In this document: in pieces, positions 35,178 through 36,273 of the stretch
How positions within the stretch are numbered: the stretch's first letter is position 1
How the letters are laid out: each line of letters begins with the position of its first letter
Translations under genes and position numbers: made by a program
Notes under the pieces: generated by a model
Seen by the model: only the letters and a program-made list of their open reading frames with translations
Told to the model about the DNA's origin: nothing
Databases searched by the model: none
From: Deltaproteobacteria bacterium
GTDB lineage: Bacteria; Desulfobacterota; Desulfomonilia; UBA1062
Direction: 5' to 3'
DNA length: 64,000 nt
NCBI GenBank assembly: GCA_018434685.1
Contig: JAHDOV010000014.1
Coordinates: 1 to 64,000, forward strand

Positions 35178-35471
35178 TCAACCGGAACACGATCCCGATG
35201 AATCTTTCGGGTTCAGGCCGCTATAGACCAGTATTCCACCGGCAGACCCGTCGATGGTGATCGCTCCTGCAAGGTCCATGAGTTCCGTATCTACCATGAA
35301 TTTGAATTCTTCCACATGGAAGATGTGATCGTCTTTTTTCGGCTCATCCAGAGCCAGCCGCAGTTGCGGTCCCCCTCAGCCGTAATTCATATACACCCGC
35401 AGCGGAGAGAGCCTCCTGGTGCTGAAGTATTTTCTCAGGTGTGTTTTTCCCCCTTCGGTTATGGTTATCAT
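35178..35471 (-). CDS. HesB-like (IscA-type) selenoprotein with in-frame UGA as Sec
   Basis: Read through a single TGA at 35378-35376, this frame encodes 97 residues of an iron-sulfur A-type carrier (HesB/IscA-like) protein. It starts MITITEGGKTHLRKYF and continues VYMNYG-U32-GGPQLRLALDEP, then HVEEFKFMVDTELMDLAGAITID to a TGA stop. U32 occupies the place where Cys homologues have the first cluster-ligand Cys. The start ATG 35471 is preceded by AGGGGG. A hairpin matching bacterial SECIS rules follows the UGA. The family is known to contain selenoproteins in anaerobes. The C-terminal CGC pair of IscA is missing; only Cys95 remains. Standard gene calling would miss or truncate this gene. Confidence 0.85.
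35341..35378 (-). promoter_or_regulatory. Bacterial SECIS element after the UGA codon
   Basis: Downstream of the in-frame UGA (35378-35376) the mRNA can form GGCTC-TGGAT-GAGCC (35355-35341): a 5-bp stem with a five-base apical loop. The loop starts 25 nucleotides after the UGA, and its second base is G. This fits the accepted bacterial SECIS pattern, in which a G lies in the first two loop positions and the apical loop is roughly 16-37 nucleotides from the UGA. It would bind SelB. A competing hairpin CCGC-AACT-GCGG lies between. Confidence 0.7.
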
Positions 35472-35552
35472 GCCGGTATCCCCCTGTCTTTTTTGTGTGC
35501 TTTCTGATACTGTTTCCTGGGCACATGTTCCTACAGGTGAGAAGAAATGGCA

Positions 35553-35566
35553 TTGATGTAGATCAA
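35553..35566. promoter_or_regulatory. FNR-type palindromic site
   Basis: TTGATGTAGATCAA is an exact match to the FNR/Dnr consensus TTGAT-N4-ATCAA. It lies between the divergent selenoprotein gene and the Crp/Fnr-family gene. The centre is about 34 bases before the regulator's ATG, suggesting autoregulation. It is about 88 bases before the selenoprotein's ATG, a plausible activator position. Confidence 0.75.
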
Positions 35567-35592: not shown

Positions 35593-36273
35593 ATGGATGC
35601 AGAAGAAATTCTCAAGTTCATCCCGCTGTTTAAGGGGCTTCCCGCCAATCAGCGGCAGATCCTCGCGCAGTGTGCGCAGGAAAAGCGCTACAGCGCAGGA
35701 CAGACCATCTTTATCGATACCCAGGCGTCCCAGGCATTCTACCTCGTTGTGTGGGGAAGGGTGAAGATCTTCAAGAGTGCGAGCGACGGCAAGGAACAGA
35801 CCATATTCCTCTTCGGCCCGGGTGAGCCGTTCTGCCTCACGGCCCTGACGGACGAGTTCTCTCCGGCCAGTGCCATGGCCCTTGAGGATACCCGCATCCT
35901 CATGTTTCCCGCGCAGGTCCTGGAGGACATGGCAAAGGAGGAACCCTCGCTGCTGTTCAATATGCTCCTCGTGCTCTCCCGGCGCCTGAAGGAATCGCTC
36001 AGTCTCATAGAATCACTGTCATTGAAGGAGATCCCCCAGCGGCTGGCGGCATTCCTGCTCCACTCCTCGCGGCAGAAAAGCAACCCGGATACGGTCGAGC
36101 TGGGTTTTTCGCAGCGGGAGCTGGCAAAGATCCTCGGTGCAACGCCCGAGACCCTGTCCCGGGTATTCAGGAAATTCAGCACGGAGGGGATCCTGAGTGT
36201 CGAAGGCCGGACCATCACCATCCGCGACCATGGTGCCCTCAAGAAACTCTCTCGCGGGGAAACGGATCAATAA
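35593..36273 (+). CDS. Crp/Fnr-family transcriptional regulator
   Basis: This 226-residue regulator has an N-terminal cyclic-nucleotide-binding-like beta-barrel (about residues 5-120; KRYSAGQTIFIDTQASQAFYLVVWGRVKIF), a long dimer helix, and a C-terminal winged helix whose recognition helix lies in GFSQRELAKILGATPETLSRVFRKF. There is no N-terminal Cys cluster, so it is not a canonical oxygen-sensing FNR. It is closer to the Dnr/NnrR group, which respond to NO through haem or to other signals. The FNR-type palindrome directly upstream is its likely target. It is divergent from the selenoprotein gene. Confidence 0.88.
   Translation: MDAEEILKFIPLFKGLPANQRQILAQCAQEKRYSAGQTIFIDTQASQAFYLVVWGRVKIFKSASDGKEQTIFLFGPGEPFCLTALTDEFSPASAMALEDTRILMFPAQVLEDMAKEEPSLLFNMLLVLSRRLKESLSLIESLSLKEIPQRLAAFLLHSSRQKSNPDTVELGFSQRELAKILGATPETLSRVFRKFSTEGILSVEGRTITIRDHGALKKLSRGETDQ

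Follow-up and report, generated by a model that had tools for sequence, protein, structure and literature searches.

A very probable HesB-like selenoprotein gene divergently paired with a Crp/Fnr-type regulator

The window, that is, the whole 64,000-nucleotide stretch that was analysed, carries on its minus strand (35178..35471) a gene for a HesB-like protein with an A-type carrier fold, recognised from its translation with TGA read as U, its match to the family model NF038090 and its predicted IscA fold. The gene consists of 97 codons and a TGA stop at 35178-35180, and a direct reading places a ribosome binding site, AGGGGG (35480..35485, minus strand), 8 nt ahead of the ATG. Codon 32 is an in-frame UGA (35376..35378, minus strand), assigned to selenocysteine from the homologue column and lying in the motif GUGGP (residues 31-35). 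The translation is MITITEGGKTHLRKYFSTRRLSPLRVYMNYGUGGPQLRLALDEPKKDDHIFHVEEFKFMVDTELMDLAGAITIDGSAGGILVYSGLNPKDSSGSCSG, in which Sec32 and Cys95 are the sole Sec/Cys residues. The first-pass annotation had proposed a complete 97-residue read-through product of this kind, leaving the minus strand unstated, with U standing where the first cluster Cys would be; the translation bears out the former, and GUGGP aligns at that Cys in IscA. The terminal TGA was also considered as a second Sec codon and rejected, because orthologues terminate at the identical place with TAA, TAG or TGA. Divergent from the selenoprotein gene is a gene for a Crp/Fnr-family regulator of 226 aa (35593..36273, plus strand; PF00027 and PF13545), which is kept beside the orthologues, and between the two lies an FNR-type palindrome, TTGATCTACATCAA (35553..35566).

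The protein matches NF038090 (IscA_HesB_Se) over its full length, with residues 1-96 aligned on profile positions 1-100 of 101 (E = 1.3e-20), at a score of 73.5 bits, below the curated cut-off of 85. TIGR01911 (HesB_rel_seleno) gives a weaker match of 31.6, below its curated cut-off of 66.35. A Pfam search of the selenoprotein returned no match, and an Rfam search of the stretch returned nothing relevant. On the two profile scores we place the gene in a diverged branch of the broader HesB-like family, outside the named models. Because it scores under the curated models and the UGA splits its frame, ordinary annotation is likely to overlook it. A structure model predicted using 78 family sequences has a mean pLDDT of 91, which drops to a low-confidence 50 in the tail that bears Cys95. 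The best solved structures matching this model are E. coli IscA (1s98; Z = 10.9, rmsd 2.6 over 90 residues), cluster-bound IscA and SufA (2d2a; Z = 10.0), and the family profile retrieves the same kind of protein by sequence. The HesB/IscA relationship claimed earlier is thus upheld by the full-length profile match together with the predicted fold.

The HesB-like family has been known for about two decades and is little understood; since it is already known, the window gene is a new member of it. Reviews count the family among the prokaryotic selenoproteins (PMC13188914; PMC1794560). The window protein resembles its HesB-like relatives (NF038090, TIGR01911; PMC1794560, PMC13188914) in length, fold, bSECIS element and alternation of Sec and Cys, and their UxGP motif, which holds the Sec, appears here as UGGP. 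It differs from them in scoring under both cut-offs, in a tail cut to one Cys (SCSG), and in the Crp/Fnr-type regulator gene and FNR-type box that accompany its own gene. With IscA, SufA and ErpA it shares the predicted A-type fold, but it has Sec for the first Cys and no C-terminal CGC (CxC). For the HesB-like selenoprotein MMJJ_08070 of Methanococcus maripaludis evidence is reported from 75Se labelling and mutagenesis, and nitrogen fixation was not impaired in the disruption mutant (PMC11097638). We liken the two by description, through the shared name; MMJJ_08070 is archaeal, and hence has an archaeal SECIS.

A set of 116 homologous genes from relatives, the window gene included, was used to examine codon 32. 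At this column 93 genes have Sec (TGA), 18 have Cys, four have Trp and one, a pseudogene, has Asp, so that the U or C looked for in homologues is found at the site. Five of the 18 Cys genes resemble ordinary IscA-type proteins with CGCG tails, and the result is unchanged when they are omitted. A scan of the genome contigs gave one distant relative, and the plasmid collection gave one.

Just past the UGA lies a bSECIS hairpin (35340..35356, minus strand), GGCUC-UGGAU-GAGCC, with the 5-nt loop UGGAU, assigned from its register in homologues and from covariation. It is as the first-pass annotation described it, with five Watson-Crick base pairs, a gap of 25 nt from UGA to loop and G at loop position 2, and a U-G pair extends the stem to 6 bp (-8.5 kcal/mol). 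These values satisfy the published bSECIS limits, namely a loop of 3-9 nt, a stem of 4-16 bp, a spacing of 16-37 nt and an MFE <= -7.5 (PMC13188914). When the window gene is recoded synonymously, such a hairpin survives in only 0.55% of cases. When a hairpin was required to have five or more stem pairs, a loop exactly 25 nt past the UGA and G within the first two loop positions, 88 Sec genes out of 93 had it in register, versus 1.3 expected under synonymous recoding, and 0 of the 23 non-Sec genes had it; these counts come from related genes and are hence not independent events. Several of the 23 non-Sec genes retain the LALDE-type peptide yet have no hairpin. The five exceptions among the Sec genes include two with an insertion and two (G086 and G049) whose hairpin is weaker and has a spacing of 20, and all five were omitted from the covariation set. 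Among 72 aligned Sec genes, both sides have changed at four of the six stem pairs, a level reached in 0 of 500 shuffles; compensatory examples are GGCUC/GAGCC to GGUUC/GAACC and to UUCUC/GAGAA.

The selenium machinery that a check of the genome should reveal is present, with selB (345 bits), selA (526), selD (383) and tRNA-Sec (71.8) each above the family cut-off. Taken together, the family match, the fold, the sel genes, the homologue column and the conserved hairpin make the window gene very probably a working HesB-like selenoprotein, as judged from sequence. It is hardly credible that the UGA is a nonsense mutation in a decaying locus: although one true orthologue pseudogene does exist, the UGA stands at the matching codon in orthologues 44-56% identical to the window protein, the part of the gene after the UGA is under purifying selection (dN/dS of 0.28-0.51 against the orthologues, so that the loss of coding potential looked for there is not seen), the hairpin is conserved and the Sec machinery is intact. 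Decoding of the UGA as Trp, or by some near-cognate tRNA, deserves just as little credence; Trp (TGG) does occur at the site in four paralogues from another family of the same class, but these have no hairpin, whereas in the Sec genes it stays in register, and selB and tRNA-Sec are in the genome.

Several observations on related genes are added here. The broken orthologue (L103, G015:C61, 4184-4543) has lost both the Sec codon and the frame, with its regulator and box intact. The Trp paralogues (L104, L105, L106 and L107, in G031, G032 and G026) are otherwise intact, lack the SECIS hairpin and form one supported clade, in which Sec has apparently been replaced by Trp. The genome of the window holds four HesB-Se genes in total, each with one internal TGA. 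Its selD (G000:C22:160214-161134) has an in-frame TGA as well, so SelD is probably itself a selenoprotein on the evidence of that codon.

The regulator and its putative operator were absent from the first-pass annotation, and the clade linked to this regulator is the finding that adds most. Orthologous loci keep the selenoprotein gene divergent from a Crp/Fnr-type regulator, which in L088 seems shortened to its first part, and at six loci the far side of the selenoprotein gene is occupied by a YbaK-type deacylase and an alpha-amylase-family gene. The box TTGATNNNNATCAA is exact in the window and at nine other loci, the pseudogene locus included, and is degenerate in L088. No such box was found within 300 bases upstream of the other family members examined. 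The recognition helix of the regulator reads ATPETLSR and is kept in most orthologues; its E..SR corresponds to the residues through which FNR of E. coli recognises TTGAT. The regulator shows no N-terminal cysteine cluster of the FNR kind, so its sensing mode likely differs from that of FNR. The consensus FNR box is TTGATnnnnATCAA, and the NO-responsive DNR binds a similar motif (PMC1274295). The window locus shares this type of site with DNR and HcpR, and in two cyanobacteria HcpR genes are likewise transcribed divergently from their target (PMC1274295), but what adjoins the regulator here is a selenoprotein gene, not hcp or nor.

Genome-wide there are three exact palindromes, that of the window among them, versus one for the reversed control. 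A second exact FNR-type box (L162, near 1501) stands upstream of a small sulfite/nitrite-reductase-like gene, and the remaining one is near an unknown gene. With exact sites so few, and two of them near those genes, the inference of a regulon is unwarranted.

In the tree, the window gene falls in a supported clade of eight genes of the box-linked group (100/85), within a larger clade of 12 (97/87) made up of these eight, two further box-bearing genes and two box-less ones. What is new, as far as gene order and sequence conservation indicate, is a small clade whose genes stand divergent from a Crp/Fnr-type regulator, with a conserved TTGATNNNNATCAA box between the two, and our literature search found no paper joining HesB-like, selenocysteine and Fnr. 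The regulator looks to be of a redox- or nitric-oxide-responsive kind and is apparently dedicated to the selenoprotein gene. The identity of the gene, its Sec decoding and its regulatory pairing, taken jointly, are held with high confidence. Having a neighbouring regulator of its own and one conserved operator, this clade offers a direct way into HesB-like function, and finding the signal of the regulator would reveal when the HesB-like protein is needed.

The chemistry is much less certain, and any single version of the role is given at best somewhat less than an even chance. The IscA CGC pair, which had been noted as missing, is indeed absent, leaving Sec32 and Cys95 only, and a non-standard chemistry is possible with these two. 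At least 90% of the aligned members retain Cys95. A single Cys among the last 25 residues is found in 18 of the 93 Sec members, and the tails of close orthologues are CC or CSG; the single-Cys tail, on this comparison of sequences, is therefore a property of the sub-branch and not unique to the window protein. On one reading, the protein may be mainly an IscA-like A-type carrier of Fe-S clusters or iron with a selenolate ligand. The IscA/SufA fold, the Sec at the first ligand position and the retention of Cys95 are consistent with this; on the other side stand the absent CGC pair and the presence of DsrR, an IscA-fold protein, among the structure matches, given which cluster binding cannot be read from the fold alone. 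Such a carrier is a plausible minority view. Weighed slightly above it, and still tentative, is the view that the protein is a factor of thiol/selenol redox or metal(loid)-binding type, which would use Sec32 and the tail Cys in stress defence and not in cluster assembly. The apparently dedicated regulator, whose pairing hints at a stress role, and the Cys-rich tails of most family members argue for such a factor, as do the surroundings of the paralogue C10:16089, yet these ars-type surroundings belong to another paralogue, and the tail in the clade of the window is poor in Cys.

Our best guess is a Sec/Cys protein handling redox, metal or Fe-S chemistry, induced under redox or nitrosative change. 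SelB and tRNA-Sec, together with the hairpin just past codon 32, would insert selenocysteine at the position that in IscA is taken by the first cluster Cys. The divergent regulator probably controls transcription through the shared TTGATNNNNATCAA box, as its conservation suggests, and production of the protein would follow a change in oxygen, redox state or nitric oxide sensed by the regulator. Sec32, perhaps with Cys95 of the flexible tail, would then most likely hold a metal, an Fe-S cluster or a redox state. A more specific, and unlikely, proposal is that the regulator and the selenoprotein make up a dedicated module of two genes. Its A-type protein, whose only chalcogen ligands would be Sec32 and Cys95, would repair or buffer iron or Fe-S chemistry in anaerobes under nitric-oxide or oxygen stress.

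Two observations concern other copies of the family. At L095 (G000:C10; 2742-3600 and 4090-4401), the paralogue C10:16089, which at 105 bits clears the NF038090 cut-off, adjoins a permease, an ArsR-type regulator and an arsenite methyltransferase-like gene, the last with an in-frame TGA of its own (AYTA-U-ISGA). In eight genomes (L028, L030, L035, L057, L082, L084, L098 and L109), a family copy with Sec and one with Cys stand in tandem or as near neighbours, where they are perhaps hetero-oligomers or selenium-dependent alternates.
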